Below, in pieces: positions 28,597-50,786 of a DNA stretch of 64,000 nucleotides (positions are counted from its first letter, which is position 1; every line of letters begins with the position of its first letter). Origin of the DNA: a virus; IMG/VR virus record IMGVR_UViG_3300031787_008043, positions 1-64,000 of that record, one strand, 5' to 3'. A program made the position numbers and the translations under genes. Under the pieces are notes generated by a model. The model had not been told where the DNA came from. It made no database searches and saw only the letters and a program-made list of their open reading frames with translations.

Positions 28597-28836
28597 ATGA
28601 TTTGGATAGATTATAATATAACTCAAGCCGGCGGCAATTTTAGAGTCGAAGGTGAATGGCCTGGAGAAGTTATGGGGCTCGACAGACAGGGCAATCCCGG
28701 AAACAAGAAACGTCCGTTGTATCAACCCGGTGATGTTTTTATAGTTAACAAGGATGGGTGGCTTGTTAAACAAGAAGAATTGACATCACTGATGTTAACA
28801 TATGAGAGTAAAAAATCTACTTTGTCAGGGCAATAA
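28597..28836 (+). CDS. Unknown protein, 79 aa
   Basis: Plus-strand gene between the terminator and the convergent cyclase gene, with which it overlaps by 20 nt at the 3' ends. Contains a Gly/Pro-rich start (TQAGGNFRVEGEWPGEVMGLDRQGNPG) that looks like a small beta domain. AAAAAGGC serves as a weak ribosome site. Codon use is phage-like; function unknown. Confidence 0.6.
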   Translation: MIWIDYNITQAGGNFRVEGEWPGEVMGLDRQGNPGNKKRPLYQPGDVFIVNKDGWLVKQEELTSLMLTYESKKSTLSGQ

Positions 28837-30859
28837 ACACGCCATTCCAATCTGCTGGCAATGTTTGCGTTTTCATGTATTCACAACGTTCAATCCACAT
28901 ATCGTAGTATTTTTCCATTTTGCCGTCAAATGCTCTGCGAATTAAATTACACTGTTCTATTGCTTCATCAAACTGTTTCATACGATATAGTTTGTGCATT
29001 TGATCATGATGTTTTTTACTGGTTTTCCATGTTGGTTTAACATCGTCTAATACAGTATAGATAGCAACACCTACAGTTTTACCTTTAACTGCTAAGTCAT
29101 CTACTTTGAGGAAGAAGAATTCGTCTTTGCACTGTTCTACTGTAGCGCCACCCACGAGTAATAAGCAGCCGTATTCTTTACATTTTGATTCGATTCTTGC
29201 GGCGGTGCTGACTGCGTCTCCAAGTACGTCGTAACTGTGACGTTTGGTTGACCCCATTTCTCCGATGTATCCGAGACCTGTGTTGATTCCGGCGCCCATG
29301 CCAACTGGTGGTCTTCCTTGGGGTATGATGACTGTTTCATTAAAATTCTCTACTGCTCGTAACATTTTTAAACCAGTAGCAACTGCTGTCTTTGCATGTT
29401 CAGGATCGTCTACTGGTGCATTGTGTATATGCATACTTGCATCACCGATATATTTAATAATCATACCGTTTGCATCTAGCACAGGCTGTGTGATAGCATC
29501 CATGTATCCATTCATTATTTTAGTAAGTCCTGCAACATCGTCGCCGAAACTTTCACCTAATGGTGTAAAGCCACGTAAATCGCTAAACAGTATGCTTACT
29601 TCTTTCTTCATGCCTTTCTTGACAAGATCTGGGTTTGTTTGCAATAACTTAACTACGGCAGGTGATGCATATCCTTCGAACTGTTTCTTGATTGCTTGCT
29701 TTTGTAAGAACTCACTTACAAATTTGATTACATAACGTATAATACCTACAAGCAATAGAAACGCCGCAGGTAAAAATCCATCAATCAAGAAGTTGTAGGT
29801 AGCAAAGGCATAGATGCTACCACCGATTGACCCACCTACAAGTATTACAAAAATGCCAATGCCCGCATAAGTCCAACGTGCAGCAACTATTAGTGCTAAT
29901 CCGGCAAGTACAAATGCTAATAATTCGGCACCTGGTGACCATGCAGGGCGTTCTATGTTACTTGCATTAAACACTGTGCCTAACATCATAGCCTGTAGTT
30001 CATGTGGCCACACGCCGCCTTTGGCTGTTGCAATTGGTTGTGTAATGCCAGCCGCAGTAGGACCTACAAATACTATACCTCCGGCAAAGTCTGCAGGTAG
30101 TTCTGCTGCACTGTGACTGCTAAAGCCTTGACTCCAGTCTAACCATACTCTACCAAGTCCATCAGTTTGTAGTACACCGTATTGCGGAATTCGTAATTTG
30201 TCAACTCCCAACGGTGATAATTTGATTTGGAAACTAGGATCCCCTGCTAGAACTCTAAGCACTTCCATAGTAACGTTAGGGTATAGTATTCCTCCACTTT
30301 CTAGTACTAGCGGAGCACGTCTGACAACTCCATCAATTTCTGGAAAGGTATTGATAATTCCTGACCCAACTGCTGCATTTTCAATGGCAGGCACGTTTGC
30401 TGTGATGCCAGGCACGGCAGGGATAAGATCAATAAAGTCACTATTAATGATACTAGCACCAGGGTTGATTGGTTCATTTTTATTTTCCTCAGTTCCTAAC
30501 ATTGTAACTACAACAGGATAATTACCCATAGTAGTTGATAGTATCCTGTCTTGTCCTGCTCTGTCTGTTTCGCTCATCAACACGTTAAACACAACTAGTC
30601 CTGCGCCACGTGCATATAGATCCTCTATTAGTTTAGCATAATCGCCTCTTGGCCAAGGCCACTGACCGCGAGCAGTAATACTTGCTTCATCTATATTAAC
30701 TGTATAAATGTTATTTTCTACAGGTGCTTGATTTACTATCAACTGATCAAAATATCGTAAACGTAGACTTTCCAAAAAATCAGGGTTACTGAACTGTAAC
30801 CAGCCCAACAACCCTAAAATTACAATGCTCCAAACAGGTGATAATAACAGTTTTTTCAC
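28817..30859 (-). CDS. CHASE2-domain class III adenylate/guanylate cyclase
   Basis: 680 aa. N-terminal membrane helix (~8-25), a large extracytoplasmic CHASE2 sensor domain (~27-290) with the typical FDQLI...VNIDEASI...GQWPWPR start, three membrane helices (~305-385), and a cytoplasmic class III cyclase domain (~410-620). Metal-binding Asp residues sit in LFSDLRGFT and YIGDASMH; the Lys in IKYIGD favours ATP. At the transition-state position the usual Asn is Ser (DAVSTAARIES) while the Arg is kept, so activity may be altered. Such proteins make cAMP in response to an outside signal. GTG start 30859, overlapping the small gene upstream. It ends the block with FecR and curli-type genes. Confidence 0.9.
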   Translation of the reverse strand: MKKLLLSPVWSIVILGLLGWLQFSNPDFLESLRLRYFDQLIVNQAPVENNIYTVNIDEASITARGQWPWPRGDYAKLIEDLYARGAGLVVFNVLMSETDRAGQDRILSTTMGNYPVVVTMLGTEENKNEPINPGASIINSDFIDLIPAVPGITANVPAIENAAVGSGIINTFPEIDGVVRRAPLVLESGGILYPNVTMEVLRVLAGDPSFQIKLSPLGVDKLRIPQYGVLQTDGLGRVWLDWSQGFSSHSAAELPADFAGGIVFVGPTAAGITQPIATAKGGVWPHELQAMMLGTVFNASNIERPAWSPGAELLAFVLAGLALIVAARWTYAGIGIFVILVGGSIGGSIYAFATYNFLIDGFLPAAFLLLVGIIRYVIKFVSEFLQKQAIKKQFEGYASPAVVKLLQTNPDLVKKGMKKEVSILFSDLRGFTPLGESFGDDVAGLTKIMNGYMDAITQPVLDANGMIIKYIGDASMHIHNAPVDDPEHAKTAVATGLKMLRAVENFNETVIIPQGRPPVGMGAGINTGLGYIGEMGSTKRHSYDVLGDAVSTAARIESKCKEYGCLLLVGGATVEQCKDEFFFLKVDDLAVKGKTVGVAIYTVLDDVKPTWKTSKKHHDQMHKLYRMKQFDEAIEQCNLIRRAFDGKMEKYYDMWIERCEYMKTQTLPADWNGVFIALTK

Positions 30860-33585: not shown

Positions 33586-34680
33586 TTACTCCTGTTGATT
33601 GATATTAATTGTATTATTTCCTACACCTATCCTATATCCGTATATACTAAATCCATTTTGAACCACACCCAGTGTATACCCATATCCTTGACTTAACATT
33701 AAATCAATCATATGAGAATTTTCGCTTCTTCTAAAAATATTATTAGGCGGAACCTCGTCATAAAATATTCCTGTTTCAGGATCCAATCCTAAAAACTTTT
33801 CTTCAAAAAACGCAGTATTTTGTGTGTCTAGTTCGCTTAATAACTTTTGCATCACTTCTTTCATCACTGCTGTCAGTTGATCTACAAACACTTCGTTGAG
33901 ATATGTGTTTGTATCCAAGTCTGTTACCCATATATTTTTAATACCCTCCACAAGCGGATCCTTGTCTAATTCATCAAAAGCCAAAAAGTCTATGTCTAGT
34001 AAATCAACTGCTGGCTGTGCATCTTCTGCTGCTTCGTCATAAGGATCAACTCGTCTAACAATCAGCATACTACGAAGCATGTCTTCGGGCAGTTCTAATA
34101 TTACAGGTGGTTTAGGTACCATACCGTTATGAGCAACCACTGTGGTCTGAAAGGCTTGATTCATTATAACTATACCTTCGTCTGTTTCAACAGTTATTTC
34201 GCCAACCACGCACATGCCAGCAGTGTTGCAACTTGGCAACAGTGTAACCATACTGCCGCCGATTTCGTCTACAATCATCATAAAGTCTGTTCCACGTACA
34301 CCGATAGTTGCACTTGGTGTTTCGATATTAACATTTTGTCTGCTGTTCTTAGCAATAGCGCCACTGGCATAACGAACAGCACCTAGCGTTGCTCGCATAC
34401 TCAATTCACCAGTACCACTGTTAGGATCATACACAAACTCATCAATGACCATGCGGCTGTGTTCAGTAACATCAACACGAGTATCGTCCGCAAACTGTAA
34501 TTGCATACGACCGTTGGCAGTAGCAATTGTATCTTGCATTTCGAGTCCTACACCTTGTTCTCCGAGTATCTCTGTGGACTCACGCTTAACAATACCACTG
34601 CCATCGATGGTTGCTATTTCGCCTACATTGGCATATGCGGTATTAGCTATCAACAGCAATGGTATAATATATTTCAGCAT
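33586..34680 (-). CDS. FecR-domain periplasmic protein
   Basis: 364 aa with a signal peptide cleaved near AYA (~residue 18). Residues ~25-150 form a FecR domain: GEIATIDGSGIVKRES, LEMQDTIATANGRMQLQFADDTRVDV, LSMRATLGAVRYASG and TPSATIGVRGTDFMM, the last being the signature of the family. The remaining 200 residues are acidic and helical. FecR domains relay or scaffold signals in the periplasm and often occur beside CHASE2 cyclases in proteobacteria, as here. ATG 34680 overlaps the curlin-like stop. Confidence 0.87.
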   Translation of the reverse strand: MLKYIIPLLLIANTAYANVGEIATIDGSGIVKRESTEILGEQGVGLEMQDTIATANGRMQLQFADDTRVDVTEHSRMVIDEFVYDPNSGTGELSMRATLGAVRYASGAIAKNSRQNVNIETPSATIGVRGTDFMMIVDEIGGSMVTLLPSCNTAGMCVVGEITVETDEGIVIMNQAFQTTVVAHNGMVPKPPVILELPEDMLRSMLIVRRVDPYDEAAEDAQPAVDLLDIDFLAFDELDKDPLVEGIKNIWVTDLDTNTYLNEVFVDQLTAVMKEVMQKLLSELDTQNTAFFEEKFLGLDPETGIFYDEVPPNNIFRRSENSHMIDLMLSQGYGYTLGVVQNGFSIYGYRIGVGNNTININQQE

Positions 34681-35372
34681 TAATCAGTCTGTGTAATTGT
34701 TACAGTCCCGTCGTTGGCCGTTGATGTTACATTAACGGTCTTGTCCGTTAATCCGCTTTGTGTTATGTTGATATTATTTCCGCCACCTGTTAAATCATAG
34801 GTAATACTGTGTCCGTTTACACCGCCTGCATCATCTTGATCTATGGTAACAGTGTTGCCGCTGGCTGCTAAACTATTGTCAATGGTAAATGTAACATCAG
34901 CATTGGTTGCATCCAAGTTGGCTAAAATAACGTTGCCGTCGCCGTCGATGGTAAATTCTGCTACAAGGTTATCTGTAACTTTATTTTCACCAATATATAC
35001 GCTAAAGTCGTTGCTGTTTCCATTAACTGTAATGTCAACTGTTACAATTTCGCAGTTTGCGCCGTTTGTTATATCGCAGGTTAAATCAACTGTGTTGCTG
35101 TCCCCGTTGAATATCCAGTCACCTGTATATGTATTGCCCTTAATAGTTGCTGCTATAACGTTATAATCGCCGTTTTGTGTAATATCAAATGTCATATCAT
35201 CACCTGAAAGCAAGGCAGGTGCAGTTGTTGACAGGTCGCCGATCTTGTTGCCAGAACCGGTTTGACTAACAGTCAATGCAAGGTTGTCCCCTATTTGTTG
35301 TATGTAGATTTCGTTAGCCAAGGCCGCAGAACTAACTAGTACAAACAAGGCCCCTATTATTATTTTTTTCAT
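34680..35372 (-). CDS. Curlin-like repeat protein
   Basis: 230 aa with signal peptide (after ALA, ~residue 19). The mature part consists of imperfect Asn/Gly/Gln/Asp-rich repeats with the curlin pattern (IQQIGDN...SQTGSGN; ITQNGDYN; NGDSNTV; VNGNSNDF; DGDGNV; GGGNNINITQSG), which build beta-helical amyloid subunits such as CsgA. Acidic and without aromatic-rich regions. It should be exported through the CsgG pore encoded just upstream. One Cys pair (LTCDITNGANCE) is unusual for curlins. Confidence 0.82.
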   Translation of the reverse strand: MKKIIIGALFVLVSSAALANEIYIQQIGDNLALTVSQTGSGNKIGDLSTTAPALLSGDDMTFDITQNGDYNVIAATIKGNTYTGDWIFNGDSNTVDLTCDITNGANCEIVTVDITVNGNSNDFSVYIGENKVTDNLVAEFTIDGDGNVILANLDATNADVTFTIDNSLAASGNTVTIDQDDAGGVNGHSITYDLTGGGNNINITQSGLTDKTVNVTSTANDGTVTITQTD

Positions 35373-35384
35373 TTTTTATTGCCC

Positions 35385-36164
35385 TCATTTAAAACTCCAC
35401 AGCTCTCTACGAGCTCCTTCGTATATTAGTTCTATTATTCCTGCCTCTATTGCTGCCCTCACAGCATAGTTGGTAGGTTCGTTGACACTAAATCCACTCT
35501 CGATTTCCAGTGCCTTGGTGCTCATGTCTAAGAACTTAAATACATCTGCACCAGTTTTGTGACTAGCTATAGTTTTCTCAGTAGCCACACTTATTAGCAC
35601 TCTTCCTGTGCTAACACTTACTAAACGCATTGCAACTGTTACAGTATCTACTCTGTACTCCGATCCTGCGCCTATTCCAAAGTAACGTGCTCCGGTTCCT
35701 CCTGTTGCTACGTTACTGTCATATCCCACTATTCCGCCTTCTAGTATCAACCCTGCAAATTGCATAGGATTCAATGGATCAGGATTGTCTAAATAATTTT
35801 CTCTTGTTTGACGTATAAGTTGACGTTCTGCAATTACATTGTCCATGCCTACACGTTCTACAACTTCAAACCAACTGCCGTTGCCTACCTGCATCAGTGC
35901 ATCTATTACCCAAACTTCTGCACCTTGTGTTACTGCACTACTCAAACTGCTAAAGTTATCTGCTGGCTCTCGTTGCCCGGTTTTGTCTGTGAAACTGTAA
36001 ACACCGATAGTCATCTTAGGTCCATTTAGTGCAGGAACATTTGCAAGTTCTACACGCAAGGGATTATCTTGAATTCTCGGTTCTTCTATGATTTCACTGG
36101 CTTGTTCTTCTATCGACACACATCCAGTTAGAAATAACAATCCTACTAATGCTGCTTTAATCAA
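35385..36164 (-). CDS. csgG: CsgG-like curli secretion lipoprotein
   Basis: 259 aa, close to E. coli CsgG (277). Lipobox LFLTGC with Cys at ~15. The mature sequence follows CsgG: PALNGPKMTIGVYSFTDKTGQ, ...ALMQVGNGSWFEVVERVGMDNVIAERQLIRQTR, GLILEGGIVGYDSN, ARYFGIGAGSEYRVDTVTVAMRLVSVSTGRVL, TNYAVRAAIEAGIIELIYEG. CsgG forms the nonameric outer-membrane pore that exports curlin. Start is TTG 36164 overlapping the CsgF stop (TTGA), showing coupling. A phage copy suggests export of the curlin-like protein or reuse as a pore. Confidence 0.92.
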   Translation of the reverse strand: MIKAALVGLLFLTGCVSIEEQASEIIEEPRIQDNPLRVELANVPALNGPKMTIGVYSFTDKTGQREPADNFSSLSSAVTQGAEVWVIDALMQVGNGSWFEVVERVGMDNVIAERQLIRQTRENYLDNPDPLNPMQFAGLILEGGIVGYDSNVATGGTGARYFGIGAGSEYRVDTVTVAMRLVSVSTGRVLISVATEKTIASHKTGADVFKFLDMSTKALEIESGFSVNEPTNYAVRAAIEAGIIELIYEGARRELWSFK

Positions 36165-36625
36165 AAGTTAAACTCCCCTGCGCCAGGTATAGTAATAGTG
36201 GTTGTTCCTTCATCGCTTACAACCTCCAAAGTAATACTACCGGTAACAGTGTCTTTGCTCCAACTAATAGTACTGCCTTCTATTTCAGTTGTACCACTGG
36301 TCGGACAAGTTGCTCCTGTTTCATCAGCACAAGACTCGAACATAGCATCCACCATCTGCTTGGATAGTGTAGCATATATTCTACTTTCTATGTTGCGTAA
36401 AAATTTGTTGAGTGTTGAGTTTTCTAATTCTCGCTCTATGCGTTCTTGTTCAGCAGCAATAGCATCGTCAATATCTTTTTGTCTATTGAACCCTAGTTGT
36501 TCAATACCCAACACATGATTACTATACCCTTCACCGCTAAAACTTGGATTTTTAAATGTATGAACTAATTCTGCATTTGCAAATGTCGGTAATAGCATCA
36601 ACATGACTATCGAGATTTTTTTCAT
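36161..36625 (-). CDS. csgF: CsgF-like curli assembly factor
   Basis: 154 aa with signal peptide (cleavage after ANA, ~residue 18). The mature N-terminus LVHTFKNPSFSGEGYSNHVLG matches the CsgF segment that inserts in the CsgG pore (NPSF...). A charged helix and a C-terminal beta part follow. CsgF couples curlin secretion to nucleation at the cell surface. It is the first gene of the csgF-csgG-curlin-fecR run, with a GAGGCG ribosome site. Confidence 0.87.
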   Translation of the reverse strand: MKKISIVMLMLLPTFANAELVHTFKNPSFSGEGYSNHVLGIEQLGFNRQKDIDDAIAAEQERIERELENSTLNKFLRNIESRIYATLSKQMVDAMFESCADETGATCPTSGTTEIEGSTISWSKDTVTGSITLEVVSDEGTTTITIPGAGEFNF

Positions 36626-38340: not shown

Positions 38341-39024
38341 TTATTCAATGTCTGGAAACAAACATTCTTGTACGAATGCTCTTACATCTTCTTCGTTGAG
38401 CCCTAATGCTGTCATAGTACGTGGTGTATGTGGATTTTGTTTTTGATAATATGCATAGCGATTTTGTGCAGTCTTACCCAATTCTGCTGTGCAAGTGCCT
38501 GCATACTTTTGTATTTCAGTACCGTAATCTTCTAGATTAGCCCACGACAATTGTAGAAGTTTAAGCAGTTCTTCTTCGGTGTTAACATTGCCCACTGCCA
38601 ACATGTGTTTGCTAAAAATTGCCTGCGCCCATTCAGGTAACTCGCGTTCTTTCTTCCAAGAGTGATCTTTTAGAACATCACCAAACTGTTCAATCATAGC
38701 ATGGTTGTTGTCGACAGTAGGAGATAGATCGTGAAAGAATCCAGTGACTTTGTTTTTGCCTGCAATTACATCAAGCCCGTAGATTGGTCCAGAATTGTCC
38801 AGGTGTGGAAAAATACAAAAGTGCATCATCCAGAGACCTTTTGTTTCTCTGGCATCGACTACATCTAGATGTATGCGTCTTGCCCAGCCACTTTCCCAAA
38901 CAAGATTGATCCAGCCGGGTTGATTGAATCTGTCCATCCCAGGTTCATTAACACGTTCTGCGACTGAGTCTAAGTTATCAACAACTTCTTCTTGCCAGTC
39001 AATTAAGTAATTCCATACTGTCAT
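38341..39024 (-). CDS. Ferredoxin-dependent bilin reductase (PcyX/PebS-type)
   Basis: 227 aa from ATG 39024 (GGGA site). The HY2/FDBR signature covers residues ~35-110: WINLVWESGWARRIHLDVVDARETKGLWMMHF..., then FPHLDNSGPIYGLDVIAG with the catalytic-type Asp, and GFFHDLSP. Members reduce biliverdin to phycobilins using ferredoxin. Phage versions such as PebS and PcyX make phycoerythrobilin in four electrons; which product forms here cannot be told. A heme oxygenase that would supply biliverdin is encoded one gene upstream (40186). Confidence 0.85.
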   Translation of the reverse strand: MTVWNYLIDWQEEVVDNLDSVAERVNEPGMDRFNQPGWINLVWESGWARRIHLDVVDARETKGLWMMHFCIFPHLDNSGPIYGLDVIAGKNKVTGFFHDLSPTVDNNHAMIEQFGDVLKDHSWKKERELPEWAQAIFSKHMLAVGNVNTEEELLKLLQLSWANLEDYGTEIQKYAGTCTAELGKTAQNRYAYYQKQNPHTPRTMTALGLNEEDVRAFVQECLFPDIE

Positions 39025-40193
39025 CTGATATCCCAATAATAATAAATTATACTTTTTTTTCCGTTTACAACGTCTTCTACAGTAGATACCTCAGCATCGG
39101 CCCCGAAGACATGGCCGAAGTGAAAAAGATCATAAAGTAGAATGTCACAAATTTTATCCCCGTCATTGAATTTTAATTTTTTAATTAGTTGTTTTTGCTC
39201 ATTTACAACACTATTAAATAAAACATTGTAATTGTGATTTACATCGTCGTTTATTCTCTCAAAATCTAAATTTTTCCAGTTTTCTCTTATATGACAAATG
39301 TTTTTAAATGCTGCTTCGAATCGATGTTCGTTGGAAGTTATGTTGTCATAATTTATTGGAAAACAATATTCAAATGTTTTAAATCCTTGAGATCTTAAGT
39401 GTTCTTCTGATCCGGGTTGACCAAACAATATAAACGGATGTCTATTTATTATGGCTCTATATGTTTTTTCAGTAATCCATAAGACAGATCTGTTTGCTCC
39501 TGTTTCGGAAATTAGTGACCATGAAGTATCCGAATATAGATTCTGACTGTAGGGAAATCCATCATAACTAAAAAGATTTCCGTACTGTGAAACTTTGATG
39601 TTGTCTGGATTTCTTGAAGCAGAAGAAACAAAGTGTTGCAATTCGCCATTGTTGATATTTAAAAATCTCTTAATATCTACTGCATATTCTTTATAATAAA
39701 AGAAACTCCATTCCATGTCAATTTCATTTAACAAGTTATTATCTAATAAAAATTTTAATGGTATTAGTCTTTGAGGCTTATGCGCTTTTCCTGTAAGTAA
39801 CAATCCTCTAAACTTGGATTTATCCCATTTTTTTGCTGTTTGTTGATTGTTGATGGTTGTTGCATGTACTGTCTTGCTTTGGAAAAAATTGTATTTTATA
39901 ATATTTTTTGGAAGATCATCTTGATCATCTGCACATACACTATATAAAATAAAAAAATCTACATTGTAATTTTTGAGTTTGTTTTTAAAAAAGTTGTGTA
40001 AAAAGTTTAAATCTTTAACAAATGTTATTTCCCACATATGATTTAAAACAAATACAATTTGTTCATTTATTCCACGAGACTTTATGTTTTTTAAAAATAT
40101 TTGCATGTCAGAAAAGCATTCTTCATATTGTGGTGCATCATCCATTACATCACTAAAGTACGGTAATCTAACATGAACAAAAAGTTTACTCAT
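39021..40193 (-). CDS. Probable glycosyltransferase-like protein, 390 aa
   Basis: Markedly more AT-rich than its neighbours and inserted between the heme oxygenase and bilin reductase genes, overlapping both (by 8 and 4 nt). The segment WITEKTYRAIINRHPFILFGQPGSEEHLRSQGFKTF (written here only as WITEKTYRAI...GFKTF) resembles the nucleotide-sugar site region of glycosyltransferases of the fucosyltransferase-like group. Many Asn, Lys, Phe and Tyr residues. The function is uncertain; its codon bias suggests separate acquisition. Confidence 0.55.
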   Translation of the reverse strand: MSKLFVHVRLPYFSDVMDDAPQYEECFSDMQIFLKNIKSRGINEQIVFVLNHMWEITFVKDLNFLHNFFKNKLKNYNVDFFILYSVCADDQDDLPKNIIKYNFFQSKTVHATTINNQQTAKKWDKSKFRGLLLTGKAHKPQRLIPLKFLLDNNLLNEIDMEWSFFYYKEYAVDIKRFLNINNGELQHFVSSASRNPDNIKVSQYGNLFSYDGFPYSQNLYSDTSWSLISETGANRSVLWITEKTYRAIINRHPFILFGQPGSEEHLRSQGFKTFEYCFPINYDNITSNEHRFEAAFKNICHIRENWKNLDFERINDDVNHNYNVLFNSVVNEQKQLIKKLKFNDGDKICDILLYDLFHFGHVFGADAEVSTVEDVVNGKKSIIYYYWDIR

Positions 40194-40713
40194 CTAACTC
40201 AACAAACAACTGCATTGCAAATTCAAAACAACGATTTGCTTCCTCTGCCATTGAGTCGTTTAACATAGATCTAACAGTTGCTTTGAGTTCTTCTACGTTA
40301 TCAAAATCGTACATGGTGCCCGAACCAGGATTGCGTTTTCTAATCATTTGCCCGCCGTACATATCGCCAAAATGACGAACATATATGTGTGCAAGTATTC
40401 CTTGCCTGTCTAAAGTTATAACATGACGTTCATATTCACGTACAACCGGCATCAGTAGTGCAGATGTTGTGCCGATAGCATATTCTTTTTCAATTTCTCT
40501 AAGATCGGCGTAGATTCGTTCTGCTCTGTTTATACTCTTGAGTTCGGGTACTAATGATTTAGCAGCATCTTCCAGTATTGAATAAATCATATATTGATTG
40601 TAGAGATATTTGTGATACTCTTCAGGGGTTAGACCTTTAAGTAGTTTGCAAGCGAACTCAGTACGCTCTGCTCGTTGATGTACTTCCCAAGTGAGTTCTT
40701 TTAGTTTGCTCAT
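40186..40713 (-). CDS. ho1: Heme oxygenase
   Basis: 175 aa. The heme-ligating His is in WEVHQRAE near residue 12; the distal helix HIYVRHFGDMYGGQMI near 110 contains the conserved glycine-rich GDMYGGQ. The enzyme opens heme to biliverdin, iron and CO using ferredoxin. With the bilin reductase downstream it forms a two-step bilin pathway, as in cyanophages (ho1-pebS). ATG 40713 overlaps the ClpS stop (40710), so it is coupled to the proteostasis genes upstream. Phage length is slightly short of bacterial enzymes (~200-240). Confidence 0.9.
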   Translation of the reverse strand: MSKLKELTWEVHQRAERTEFACKLLKGLTPEEYHKYLYNQYMIYSILEDAAKSLVPELKSINRAERIYADLREIEKEYAIGTTSALLMPVVREYERHVITLDRQGILAHIYVRHFGDMYGGQMIRKRNPGSGTMYDFDNVEELKATVRSMLNDSMAEEANRCFEFAMQLFVELDE

Positions 40714-41018
40714 AGTTCCTCTTCAACTCTAATGCGTAGAGGAAATCCGTTGTCTCTGCATAGGCTAGTTGCTTCGAGAGATTTTTGTTCTGCAATTTCG
40801 TAACTATAAACACCTACTACTCCACTACCTTCTTCGTGAATTTTCATTGTTAGTGTTTGTGCAGTGTTTTCAGAATGTTTAAATAGTTCGATCAATAAAC
40901 TAACAACAAACTCCATTGGTGTTTTGTCATCGTTTAGAAAAATAACTTTGTATAAACTAGGTTCTTTAACTTCTACTTTAATTTTTTCATCAATTTTTAT
41001 GTCAACTGCGGTGCTCAT
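40710..41018 (-). CDS. clpS: ClpS adaptor protein
   Basis: 102 aa. The ClpS core YKVIFLNDDKTPMEFVVSLLIELFKHSENTAQTLTMKIHEEGSGVVGVYSYEIAEQK (quoted in part: FLNDDKTPMEFV, KIHEEGSGVVGVY) includes the ND and HxxG elements that bind N-degron side chains and the ClpA docking region. ClpS delivers N-end-rule substrates to ClpAP and can block SsrA-tagged substrate entry. A phage copy could redirect host proteolysis, which is notable beside the phage tmRNA. Confidence 0.92.
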   Translation of the reverse strand: MSTAVDIKIDEKIKVEVKEPSLYKVIFLNDDKTPMEFVVSLLIELFKHSENTAQTLTMKIHEEGSGVVGVYSYEIAEQKSLEATSLCRDNGFPLRIRVEEEL

Positions 41019-41066: not shown

Positions 41067-41516
41067 TTAGCCTTGAATTAGATTTGGTATTTCAATAGCA
41101 ATCTTCTTAGGCTGCAATGCTTCTGGAACATTTCGCACTAGATGAATGTTTAACATACCAAGTTCGAGTGTTGCATTGGCAACTTCGACATGCTCGGCTA
41201 GTGTAAAGGCTCTACGGAATACGCGACCAGCAATTCCTTTGTGTAGATACTTTACTTCCTCGTCACCCTTTGGTGGTGTACCCTCAACAGTCAACGTGTT
41301 CTTATCAAGAACAATGTCGAGGTTGTCCATACCAAATCCCGCAACTGCAATAGAGATCATCCATTCGTTCTCATTGATTTCTGCAACGTTGTATGGAGGA
41401 TAGTTACTTGTGCTTTGTGAGTTAGCAAATTGACGTTCTAAATCATGAAAGATTCTATCAAAGCCAACTGTGGCACGGTGAAATGAAGGTAAGTCTAGAG
41501 TTGTAAGTCTTGTCAT
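41067..41516 (-). CDS. Small heat-shock protein (Hsp20/IbpA family)
   Basis: 149 aa. Central alpha-crystallin domain (~35-130) with NEWMISIAVAGFGMDNLDIVLDKNTLTVEG, a loop KGIAGRVFRRAFTLAEHVEVANATLELGMLNIHLVR and the C-terminal I-x-I-like KKIAIEIP (quoted in part). The alphaproteobacterial/phage GIAxRxFxRxFxLAE pattern is clear. It holds unfolded proteins for refolding; T4-like marine phages often carry one, possibly for capsid assembly. Confidence 0.93.
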   Translation of the reverse strand: MTRLTTLDLPSFHRATVGFDRIFHDLERQFANSQSTSNYPPYNVAEINENEWMISIAVAGFGMDNLDIVLDKNTLTVEGTPPKGDEEVKYLHKGIAGRVFRRAFTLAEHVEVANATLELGMLNIHLVRNVPEALQPKKIAIEIPNLIQG

Positions 41517-41569: not shown

Positions 41570-42694
41570 TTATTTACCATTGTTCGCATACACACCGTTA
41601 AATTGTTGTGTTACACGAACAAAGGTTGTGCATTTGCTAAGTTGTTTTAATGTCTTAGCGCCTGCATATGTGCAGGTAGATCTAATACCGCCAAGCAGTT
41701 CCTGTACTGTGTTGTTCACAGGACCTCTGTAAGGCACTAACACCTCCCTGCCTTCTGACGCTCGATAATCTTTCAAGCCGCCAAAATGTTTGTCGTTTGC
41801 TGCTTTACTGCTCATACCATAGAACTTGACAAACCGTTTTTCTTCTACAACAAGATTTACACCATCGTGCTGTAGTTGATTTGTTCGGTAGTATTTGGCA
41901 ATGACTTCACCACCGCCTTCATCATGTCCGGCCAGCATCCCGCCCAGCATCACAAAGTCAGCACCAGCAGCAAAGGCTTTAGCAACATCGCCAGGGCAAG
42001 TACAACCGCCATCGGCAATAACATGACCACCAAGACCATGAGCAGCATCCGCACACTCGATGATGGCGGATAGTTGGGGATAGCCGACCCCAGTTTGTAT
42101 ACGAGTAGTACAAACACTGCCAGGACCAATGCCGACTTTAACAATATCTGCTCCAGCAAGAATTAATTCCTCTGTCATTTCGCCAGTAACAACATTACCA
42201 GCAATGATTACAATATGTGGATAACGTTCGCGAATATTTCGTACATGATTTACAAATGTTTCTGTGTAACCATTTGCAACGTCAATACACAGATACTTTA
42301 GTTGTTCGCTAACATTAAGATAAACCTTGCAAAATTTGTCGTAGTCTGCATTGCTAACGCCAATGCTCATAGCAACATGTTCAGTACGAATGCTGTTGCC
42401 TTTAAAGAAATCTATAAGTTCTTGAGCACTGTATGTTTTAACAAGGCAAGTAAATGTACCGGATTTTGCTAGTGTGTCAGCCATGTCAAATGTGCCAACA
42501 CCGTCCATGTTAGCGGCCATAATAGGAACGCCACGATAGTGGTAATCTTCGATGTTATCTGGAAATCTCGGAACGTAATTTCTAAAACTAAATCTACGTT
42601 CTAGGTCTACTTCACTACGACTGCCTAGTGTGCTTCTTTTAGGACGAATAAGAACGTCCTTATAATCTAATTTAACGTCGGTTTCTAACCGCAT
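41570..42694 (-). CDS. guaC: GMP reductase
   Basis: 374 aa, IMP dehydrogenase/GMP reductase TIM barrel without CBS domains. The region [21 protein letters not shown] near residue 190 contains the catalytic Cys loop in GMP-reductase form, followed by [35 protein letters not shown]. It converts GMP to IMP with NADPH and so links RNA-derived GMP to the adenine pool, useful with the phage ribonucleotide reductase for balancing AT-rich dNTP needs. ATG 42694. Confidence 0.93.
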
Positions 42695-47672: not shown

Positions 47673-47685
47673 ATGCTTGTTCGTC
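47673..47685 (-). pseudogene. First codons of a formate dehydrogenase delta-subunit gene (fragment)
   Basis: An ATG overlaps the fdsA stop (ATGA) and reads M-T-N-K before running into phage-like sequence and a stop. In Rhodobacterales operons fdsD starts at this place. Only the start remains. Confidence 0.5.
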
Positions 47686-50563
47686 ATTTCGCTGCTGCAA
47701 TACGACGTGAGAGAGTGGCTTGAGCGTTGTATTCCTCTTGCCATTTCGACGGGCCGTTGGAGGGCGACACCTGAACTGCCGTAACCTTGTATTCTGGACA
47801 GTTGGTAGCCCAATCGCTGAAATCGGTGGTGATAACATTGGCTTGGGTGTCGGGGTGGTGGAAGGTGGTGTAGACCACGCCCGGATTGACTTTGTCGGTC
47901 AGTGTTGCTCGCAGGGTGGTTTCCCCGGCACGTGAGGCCAGACGCACCCAATCACCCTCTTTGACACCGCGCACTTCAGCATCGTGGGGATGGATTTCCA
48001 ACAAATCTTCAGTATGCCATATACTGTTCGCTGTGCGGCGTGTTTGGGCGCCCACGTTGTACTGCGACAGGATACGGCCCGTGGTGAGTAGCAGCGGGAA
48101 ACGCGGGCCAGTGCGTTCATCAGTGGCAATATATTCGGTGTTGATGAACCGACCTTTGCCACGCACGAAGGCATCGACGTGCATCAAAGGCGTGCCTTCA
48201 GGCGCTTTTTCGTTGCAGGGCCACTGGACCGAGCCCATCTCTTCGATCTTGTCATAGCTGACACCGGCGAAGGACGGCGTGGTCATGGCAATCTCTTCCA
48301 TGATCTGCACCGGGTGGGTGTAGTTCCAGTTGGCACCCATTGCGTTAGCGAACAACTGGGTGACTTCCCAATCGGCATAACCCGGCTTCGGAGCCATTAC
48401 CTTGCGTACCATGTTGATGCGGCGCTCAGTGTTGGTAAAGGTGCCGTCCTTTTCCAAGAAACTCGATCCAGGGAAGAACACATGGGCGTAGTTTGCGGTC
48501 TCGTTCAGGAACAGGTCATGCACGATCACGCATTCCATCGCTGCCAGACCTGCCGCAACGTGCTTGGTGTCCGGGTCAGATTGCAGGATGTCTTCGCCTT
48601 GGCAGTACAACCCCTTGAAGGTGCCCTCCACGGCGGCATCCAGCATGTTGGGGATACGCAGGCCCGGCTCATTATCGATCTTCACGCCCCAGAGGTTTTC
48701 ATAGATTGCCCGTACATCGTCGTTCTTCACATGGCGGTAACCCGGCAGTTCGTGCGGGAAGGATCCCATGTCGCACGAGCCTTGCACGTTGTTTTGGCCA
48801 CGCAGCGGGTTCACACCCACGCCCGGACGGCCAATGTTGCCGGTCATCATCGCCAAGTTTGCAATGCCGATCACGGTGGTCGAGCCTTGCGAATGTTCCG
48901 TCACGCCCAGACCGTAGTAGATCGAGCCGTTGCCGCCGGTGGCATAGGTGCGGGCCGCGGCGCGGACATCCTCGGCCTTGACGCCGGTTAGGATTTCCAC
49001 CGCTTCGGGCGAATGGTTCGGGCGGCTGACAAACTCGGCATAGTCTTGGAATTCATCCCAGTCGCAGCGGGTGCGGATGAACTCTTCGTTGTAGAGCTTT
49101 TCGGTCACGATCACATGCGCCAGTGCGGTGACCATGGCCACGTTGGTGCCTGGTGTAAGTGCAAGGTGATGTACTGCTTTGATATGCGGGCTTACTACAA
49201 TTTCAGTGCGGCGAGGGTCAATGACTATCAGTTTCGCTCCTTTACGCAGGCGTTTTTTTAGACGGCTTGCAAAGACCGGGTGACCTACAGCAGGATTGGC
49301 TCCAATCACAATGGCCACATCTGTATATTCTACCGAATCAAAGTCTTGCGTTCCAGCACTGGTACCAAGAGTCTGACCCAAGCCATAACCGGTGGGCGAA
49401 TGGCAGACGCGGGCGCAGGTGTCAGTGTTGTTGTTCAGGAACACTGCTCGAGTCAGTTTCTGCACCAGATAGGTTTCTTCATTGGTGCAGCGCGACGAGG
49501 TGATCACACCCACGGACTTTTGCCCGTATTTGGAAATTATGCCCTTCATGCGGTTCGCGGCGAATTCCATCGCCTCGGCCCACGAGACTTCTTTCCACGG
49601 GTCGTTGATGCTGTCGCGGATCATCGGCGACAGGATGCGGTCTTGGTGGGAGGCATAGCCATAGGCAAAGCGGCCCTTGACGCAGGAATGGCCACGGTTG
49701 GCCTTGCCGTGCTTGTAAGGGACCATCCGCACCAGCTCGTCGCCGCGCAGTTCAGCTTTAAACTGGCAACCCACACCGCAATAGGCGCAGGTGGTGATGA
49801 CAGAGCGTTCCGGTGTGCCGATTTCGATGATCGACTTTTCCTGCAAGGTCGCTGTCGGGCAGGCTTGTACGCAGGCACCGCAGGACACGCAATCCGAGGC
49901 CAGCGCATCATCGGTTTTTGCACCGAACGACACACGGCTGTCAAAGCCTCGACCTTCGATGGTCAGCGCAAAGGTGCCCTGCACCTCTTCACAAGCCCGC
50001 ACACAGCGCGAGCAGACGATGCATTTCGCCGGGTCATAGGTGAAGTAGGGGTTGCTCTCGTCCTTGGCTTTCCACTGCGGATTGGCCTCGCCAGAGTTGT
50101 TCTTGGCGCGGAAGTGGGTGTCGATCGCCTCATAGCGCACATCGCGCAGGCCGACGGCACCAGCCATGTCCTGCAACTCGCAATCGCCATTGGCCGAGCA
50201 GGTCAGGCAGTCCAGCGGGTGGTCCGAGATATACAACTCCATTACGCCGCGACGCAGTTGTTTCAGATTGCCGGTTTGGGTTTTCACCCGGATGCCGGGG
50301 GCAACGGGCGTGGTGCAAGAGGCGGGCGTGCCATTGCGGCCTTCGATTTCCACAAGGCACAGGCGGCAGGAGCCAAAGGCCTCAAGGTTGTCGGTCGCGC
50401 ACAGCTTTGGCACTGTGATGCCAATCTCGGCGGCGGCTCGCATTATGCTGGTGTCTTTGGGCACGGTCACATCGAACCCGTCGATGTTCAGGGTCACCGT
50501 AGCGGTCGAACGCACATAGGGCGTGCCAAAATCGCGGTCCGAGGGAATAATGAAGTCTTTCAT
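47684..50563 (-). CDS. fdsA: NAD-dependent formate dehydrogenase alpha subunit
   Basis: 959 aa from ATG 50563, matching the length of Rhodobacter FdsA (about 958). N-terminal 2Fe-2S domain (CRLCLVEIEGR near 60), His/Cys cluster (HPLDCLTCSANGDCELQ near 115), two 4Fe-4S ferredoxin motifs (CIVCSRCVRACEE and CVSCGACVQACP), the CAYCGVGC 4Fe-4S site near 252, and the Mo/W active-site Cys-His in RVCHSPTG near 381, then the molybdopterin-binding C-terminal domain. Oxidises formate to CO2. Mostly far more GC-rich than the phage genes around it, with an AT-richer patch at ~49145-49395. The beta, gamma and delta subunits are absent apart from fragments at the ends. Confidence 0.93.
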   Translation of the reverse strand: MKDFIIPSDRDFGTPYVRSTATVTLNIDGFDVTVPKDTSIMRAAAEIGITVPKLCATDNLEAFGSCRLCLVEIEGRNGTPASCTTPVAPGIRVKTQTGNLKQLRRGVMELYISDHPLDCLTCSANGDCELQDMAGAVGLRDVRYEAIDTHFRAKNNSGEANPQWKAKDESNPYFTYDPAKCIVCSRCVRACEEVQGTFALTIEGRGFDSRVSFGAKTDDALASDCVSCGACVQACPTATLQEKSIIEIGTPERSVITTCAYCGVGCQFKAELRGDELVRMVPYKHGKANRGHSCVKGRFAYGYASHQDRILSPMIRDSINDPWKEVSWAEAMEFAANRMKGIISKYGQKSVGVITSSRCTNEETYLVQKLTRAVFLNNNTDTCARVCHSPTGYGLGQTLGTSAGTQDFDSVEYTDVAIVIGANPAVGHPVFASRLKKRLRKGAKLIVIDPRRTEIVVSPHIKAVHHLALTPGTNVAMVTALAHVIVTEKLYNEEFIRTRCDWDEFQDYAEFVSRPNHSPEAVEILTGVKAEDVRAAARTYATGGNGSIYYGLGVTEHSQGSTTVIGIANLAMMTGNIGRPGVGVNPLRGQNNVQGSCDMGSFPHELPGYRHVKNDDVRAIYENLWGVKIDNEPGLRIPNMLDAAVEGTFKGLYCQGEDILQSDPDTKHVAAGLAAMECVIVHDLFLNETANYAHVFFPGSSFLEKDGTFTNTERRINMVRKVMAPKPGYADWEVTQLFANAMGANWNYTHPVQIMEEIAMTTPSFAGVSYDKIEEMGSVQWPCNEKAPEGTPLMHVDAFVRGKGRFINTEYIATDERTGPRFPLLLTTGRILSQYNVGAQTRRTANSIWHTEDLLEIHPHDAEVRGVKEGDWVRLASRAGETTLRATLTDKVNPGVVYTTFHHPDTQANVITTDFSDWATNCPEYKVTAVQVSPSNGPSKWQEEYNAQATLSRRIAAAK

Positions 50564-50590
50564 TCGGCGGCGTCCATCTGGGCTATTTGA
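50562..50590 (-). pseudogene. Last codons of a formate dehydrogenase beta-subunit gene (fragment)
   Basis: In the frame upstream of fdsA the sequence reads ...QIAQMDAAE-stop, with its TGA overlapping the fdsA ATG, as at an fdsB-fdsA junction. Nothing further of fdsB is present. Confidence 0.5.
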
Positions 50591-50594
50591 GTGC

Positions 50595-50786
50595 TTACCA
50601 TGTTTTTTTGCTCCATGCTTCTTCGAACCCGTCTTCGTGAACAACGTTTTCATGATTACCCCAGATACGTTCAAAGTAACCGTTGTACACACTCATGATG
50701 TCTTTTTCACTCCATGCATCTGGAATCAGGTGTCCTTTGACAATCCAATAATATCTATTGGCTTCTTTGTGTTCGTATGCTGTCAC
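50595..50786 (-). CDS. Unknown small protein, 63 aa
   Basis: Probable GTG start at 50786, just downstream of an AATAAATA late-type promoter (50791-50798). Aromatic-rich start (YEHKEANRYYWIVKGH) and an acidic helical end FEEAWSKKTW. Its stop lies only a few bases from the fdsB remnant, so it seems to end intact at the boundary of the inserted segment. Confidence 0.6.
   Translation of the reverse strand: MTAYEHKEANRYYWIVKGHLIPDAWSEKDIMSVYNGYFERIWGNHENVVHEDGFEEAWSKKTW

Follow-up and report, generated by a model that had tools for sequence, protein, structure and literature searches.

Introduction

Heme oxygenase (HO) and the bilin reductase PcyX are already known together from phages other than cyanophages; for PcyX-type reductases, the original prediction had pointed to marine metagenomes and alphaproteobacterial phages. 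An adjacent pair is carried by the Pelagibacter phage Mosig EXVC030M, PcyX has been studied from marine metagenomes (5OWG, EBK42635), and cassettes of the type hemO-pcyA/X-valaS, including that of the freshwater phage CB_2, were described by Wegner et al. 2024 (PMC11480375). In vitro, a homologous phage PcyX makes phycoerythrobilin (PEB) and a phage HO makes biliverdin (PMC11480375). For phages that infect non-photosynthetic hosts, the joint presence of these heme-catabolic genes has been called 'still enigmatic' (Wegner et al. 2024, PMC11480375). Here we analyze such a pair in a T4-like phage, where it lies behind genes for ClpS and a small heat-shock protein.

Results

Layout of the bilin locus

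The window, that is the whole stretch of DNA analyzed here, comprises 64,000 nt taken from a virus record that is 68,682 bases long. Its bilin locus is located on the minus strand and reads, in order of transcription, guaC, hsp20, clpS, hemO, a gene of 390 codons and pcyX. The conserved run begins with guaC (41570..42694), whose 374-aa product scores above the cut-offs of the GMP reductase models TIGR01305 and NF003470. It is followed by hsp20 (41067..41516), encoding a small heat-shock protein of 149 aa (Pfam PF00011; an IbpA-like NCBIfam match stays below cut-off), and by clpS (40710..41018), encoding a Clp protease N-degron adaptor of 102 aa (Pfam PF02617, E 5e-28; PDB ClpS, E 7e-21). The HO of 175 aa is encoded by hemO (40186..40713; Pfam PF01126 Heme_oxygenase, E 1.5e-16), and the run closes with the inserted 390-aa gene (39021..40193) and pcyX (38341..39024), which encodes a phycoerythrobilin synthase-type bilin reductase of 227 aa. 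The last four genes are chained by overlaps of 4 nt (clpS/hemO), 8 nt (hemO/390-aa gene) and 4 nt (390-aa gene/pcyX). For pcyX the listed open reading frame starts at TTG 39036 (231 aa); we favor the ATG at 39024 because of the alignment to relatives and the 4-nt overlap with the preceding gene. An HO and a bilin reductase had been predicted at 38341-40713, the coordinates are right and both families were confirmed by Pfam, but the two genes are not adjacent, being separated by the 390-aa gene.

The locus recurs in a second, 111-kb assembly with 99.96% identity over 48 kb and is therefore no assembly artefact. Among relatives, pcyX is under purifying selection, with dN of 0.03-0.18 against dS of ~0.6-2.9 where calculable; for closer pairs dN/dS lies well below 0.2 where dS could be calculated.

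Searches of Pfam, PHROG and NCBIfam with the 390-aa protein returned no match. Its structure was modeled with low confidence (pLDDT 64), and the best Foldseek matches of this model were mostly glycosyltransferases (best E 6e-4), suggesting a probable GT-B glycosyltransferase. Homologues occupy the same slot between hemO and pcyX in two further loci, L006 (51%) and L144 (34%). Since only these three lineages were seen to have the gene, while other loci fill the slot with an SAHH or a nitrilase-like gene, we treat it as a passenger and rejected it as a member of the pathway.

Identity of the bilin reductase and the heme oxygenase

The pcyX product belongs to the FDBR fold family (Pfam PF05996 Fe_bilin_red, E 5.8e-15, 56 bits against a cut-off of 31). 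In a PDB search, the closest solved structure was PcyX 5OWG (E 2.7e-70), with PcyA matching at E 9e-11. Residues D58, H72 and D89 are invariant in 18 aligned PcyX relatives, and in this alignment H72 and D89 are the equivalents of PcyA His88 and Asp105. D58 aligns to 5OWG chain residue 63, which corresponds to Asp55 if the native Met is chain residue 9. The role of PcyX Asp55 was taken from PMC11480375 and the roles of the PcyA active-site residues from PMC10151467. Where the PcyA references carry the catalytic Glu76, the window reductase has an Asp, and an identity as PcyA was rejected for this reason.

Across 163 phage reductases, the Asp55 position is occupied by Asp in 136 and by Lys in 27, the window enzyme belonging to the Asp group. 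The Lys group forms a separate clade (100/100) in the dereplicated tree and is possibly related to the CB_2 enzyme; reductases of this clade adjoin HO at loci L085, L086, L093, L104, L137 and 22 others. In the PcyX tree, which was built without alphaproteobacterial PcyA, the window reductase falls inside the phage PcyX radiation within its own subclade with starred support, apart from a 100/100 group formed by the PcyA references. The original prediction of a PcyX-type enzyme had been made to hinge on placement among the FDBRs and on intact catalytic residues; both were found, and the 5OWG match and the phylogeny agree with it. By sequence, the window reductase is thus a PcyX and should yield PEB. 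At least 577 PcyX relatives were matched among IMG/VR stretches; PcyX is far more common than named phage records imply.

In the window HO, the proximal His12 and the GDxxGG motif (residues 116-121) are conserved in 15 aligned relatives. Its distal helix reads G116-D117-M-Y-G120-G121, and the residue following GD[LM] varies among phages (S, Y, F, A or N). The assignment of hemO as a canonical heme oxygenase (PF01126) is well supported, and formation of biliverdin is predicted. Family matches and active-site residues of both enzymes hence support the earlier proposal that the pair would take heme to a phycobilin; the identities are well supported, and the activities are those expected from close characterized homologues.

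The N-degron pocket of ClpS is made up of the residues NDDxTPM and a His. Aligned to Caulobacter ClpS 3DNJ, the window protein contains N29-D30-D31, T33-P34-M35 and H61 at these positions.

Pairing of heme oxygenase and PcyX

HO and PcyX are almost inseparable, their order is fixed and the genes often overlap. With HO as bait, PcyX was detected in 70 of 74 loci having enough downstream sequence, and with PcyX as bait, HO was present within the locus in 81 of 86. At the level of whole records, 24 of the 26 records with PcyX also contain HO, the remaining two being fragments of 10-15 kb. HO stands alone, with no bilin reductase recognizable nearby, at four of the 74 loci (L074, L075, L080 and L120), which are useful for testing the iron hypothesis.

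HO is often swapped while PcyX stays. Where two lineages had PcyX at least 80% identical (102 pairs), HO fell below 50% identity in 32, and the median identity among lineages amounts to 56% for PcyX versus 43% for HO. The exchange of HO under a conserved PcyX indicates that the pathway step is kept, not one particular gene copy.

Operon context

Within the T4-like group, the operon (guaC/dnaK)-hsp20-clpS-hemO-pcyX is conserved and closes with the pair. After dereplication into 91 locus groups, a ClpS family was counted in 39, Hsp20 in 37 and GuaC in 24. Of the lineages visible on the PcyX tree, 52 of 82 have ClpS, a distribution that takes at least 5 changes to explain; DnaK and guaC occur in 29 and 27 of 69, respectively. 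When ClpS was used as bait, every locus whose downstream sequence was long enough had HO (77 of 77, from 45 groups/lineages), in 76 of them immediately downstream; this sample consists of the 80 ClpS most similar to the window family and does not represent all phage ClpS. The phage records matched by HO do not include the ClpS-bearing reference jumbo phages. The linkage may reflect shared ancestry inside one phage group instead of shared function.

A full-length DnaK gene stands beside clpS-hemO-pcyX in relatives (L169, 4612-6567; TIGR02350 over cut-off). In another PcyX lineage, a zeta-toxin/AAA-like kinase gene is found upstream of HO (L016, 6474-7376; likewise L015, L020 and L022-L024).

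No paper describing the clpS-hemO linkage was found in a search limited to open-licence papers without their figures, and the main text of PMC11480375 does not mention the clpS-hsp20-dnaK linkage. Its connection to the pair seems not to have been discussed before.

Phage group and host

Contigs with this operon are up to 330-365 kb long. One relative of 330 kb encodes a T4-like capsid, terminase, portal and sheath that match their Mosig counterparts at 30-41%. From these sequence comparisons, the phage is a member of the T4-like group. A classification of the window as a Mosig/HTVC008M-type pelagimyophage was rejected in view of this level of similarity and a differing gene order around the pair.

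The window also contains a full-length formate dehydrogenase alpha subunit with FdsA-type domains (47684-50692, minus strand; TIGR01591, 926.8 bits against a cut-off of 666). The GC content of this gene is ~52-58% compared to ~40% for the phage, its DNA is 71-78% identical to plasmid genes whose listed hosts are all alphaproteobacteria, and part of it is also found in the second assembly. Composition and matches mark it as a recent alphaproteobacterial acquisition, unusual in a phage. The alphaproteobacterial host that had been predicted is therefore suggested and likely, yet unproven; the phage probably infects a non-photosynthetic bacterium.

A stand-alone phage ferredoxin turned up in Mosig, but neither in the window record nor in its other relatives. 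The only Fer2 match in the window falls on the formate dehydrogenase subunit, as its N-terminal domain, and a phage ferredoxin was dismissed as electron donor. A gene for 5-aminolevulinate synthase (AlaS) is present in 3 of 26 records but was not found in the 111-kb assembly of the window phage, for which a three-gene cassette with AlaS was discarded.

Of 398 sampled Pseudomonadota genomes, 397 had no bilin reductase. A bacterial source of PcyX was rejected, as nothing came out of the genome scan beyond two MAG contigs, one of 335 kb with the phage gene order and one of 3.3 kb, and Shewanella surugensis. The latter (DSM 17177), the sole isolate genome obtained, has hemO, a pcyX-like gene cut short after 74 codons (L032 4444-5216, L040 1405-2175), a transposase-like fragment downstream of the shortened gene and a second, divergent bilin reductase.

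Further genes of the window, all on the minus strand, include one that fuses a CHASE2 sensor to an adenylate/guanylate cyclase domain (28817-30859), possibly a phage second-messenger enzyme, and fifteen tRNA genes between positions 137 and 15038. A curli-like operon (33586-36625) encodes a FecR-domain protein, a weak curlin-repeat protein, CsgG and a further small protein; it is present in many relatives of the window phage group and has been reported for pelagimyophages (PMC7029224).

Discussion

Possible functions of the pair

We regard the pair as a two-step heme degradation and lean toward hemoprotein turnover and iron recovery during infection as its likeliest use, a purpose that we infer. 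HO would open heme to biliverdin IXalpha, Fe2+ and CO, and PcyX would convert biliverdin to PEB in a four-electron reduction. Since a stand-alone ferredoxin was found in none of the phages considered except Mosig, the electrons probably come from host ferredoxin or another host donor. ClpS and the chaperones would feed proteolysis of host hemoproteins, HO would dispose of the freed heme and recover its iron in a phage having its own ribonucleotide reductase genes (present in the window), and PcyX would clear biliverdin so that HO keeps turning. The chaperone and ClpS genes ahead of the pair point to turnover of heme and away from light capture. Were iron the sole aim, loci with HO but no reductase should be common, yet their rarity (4/74) counts against this, and as 2OG-Fe(II) oxygenases are scarce among the larger relatives, a special iron demand is not evident. 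More tentatively, and with some doubt, the whole operon may be devoted to hemoprotein turnover, in which DnaK, Hsp20 and ClpS would steer host heme proteins to ClpAP while HO and PcyX destroy the released heme. If true, proteolysis and heme/iron recycling would be coupled during infection of non-photosynthetic bacteria.

The main rival holds that the bilin itself is wanted, PEB serving as chromophore or ligand of a host or unrecognized phage protein, e.g., a light sensor or an antioxidant pigment. The near-constant company of PcyX and HO, the better conservation of PcyX and the PcyX-specific Asp retained in most phage reductases would fit such a role, and the scarcity of HO-only loci suits it as well as heme turnover, provided that the removal of biliverdin requires PcyX. 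On the other hand, no phycobiliprotein over cut-off, PHY domain or photosystem reaction center was detected in the phage records searched (up to 330 kb), and Pseudomonadota hosts, nearly all lacking bilin reductases in our sample, appear to have no native use of PEB. We therefore consider a demand for the bilin rather unlikely. The earlier suggestion that the product feeds a bacteriophytochrome finds no support as far as a phytochrome or phycobiliprotein encoded by the phage is concerned; heme detoxification and iron release, proposed alongside, remain better options than that. Still less probable is a role in lowering or diverting heme, by which the phage would disable host respiration, defense or signaling, or starve bacteriophytochromes of biliverdin, with iron as a by-product. 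Removal of heme by HO and of biliverdin by PcyX would serve this end, and the AlaS genes of some related records indicate that such phages manage heme flux, but these relatives would raise, not lower, the heme supply. Light harvesting in a cyanobacterial host finds a parallel in the enzyme activities, which are of the cyanophage kind. It was rejected as highly improbable: reaction-center genes (P-SSM2 as positive control) and phycobilisome genes were not found in the phage records searched, which agrees with the predicted non-cyanophage, PcyX lies apart from cyanophage PcyA in the tree, the relative Mosig infects Pelagibacter, and the formate dehydrogenase gene is alphaproteobacterial.

Comparison with known systems

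Cyanophages combine HO with PcyA or PebS for comparable reactions on heme and biliverdin, but have photosynthetic hosts and genes, unlike the window phage; among the matches listed, the window reductase aligns with cyanophage PcyA along part of its length at ~24-33% identity. The jumbo phages PA5oct, Atu_ph07 and BF encode a Clp adaptor like the window ClpS (31-44% identity over part), but, unlike the window phage group, did not appear among the matches to HO. The hemO-pcyA/X-valaS cassettes resemble the window in that a heme-catabolic pair is carried by phages whose hosts are non-photosynthetic, and differ in their AlaS. The CB_2 reductase was reported to lack Asp55 and to make PCB (PMC11480375), whereas the window enzyme has the Asp.

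The cassette of Mosig and marine metagenomic PcyX share with the window both enzymes and their order (PcyX 49%, HO 39% identical). In Mosig, hemO and pcyX overlap directly and are flanked by 2OG-Fe(II) oxygenases, ferrochelatase and neck genes, whereas the window has the glycosyltransferase-like gene between them, clpS-hsp20-guaC upstream and a larger T4-like phage group as its background. Beyond these systems, the present analysis adds the T4-like group, the near-obligate pairing, the linkage to clpS-hsp20-(dnaK/guaC) and the replacement of HO under a stable PcyX. Together, the ClpS/Hsp20/DnaK link, the pairing and the HO replacement lead to a testable hypothesis, in which heme/iron turnover would be coupled to proteolysis.
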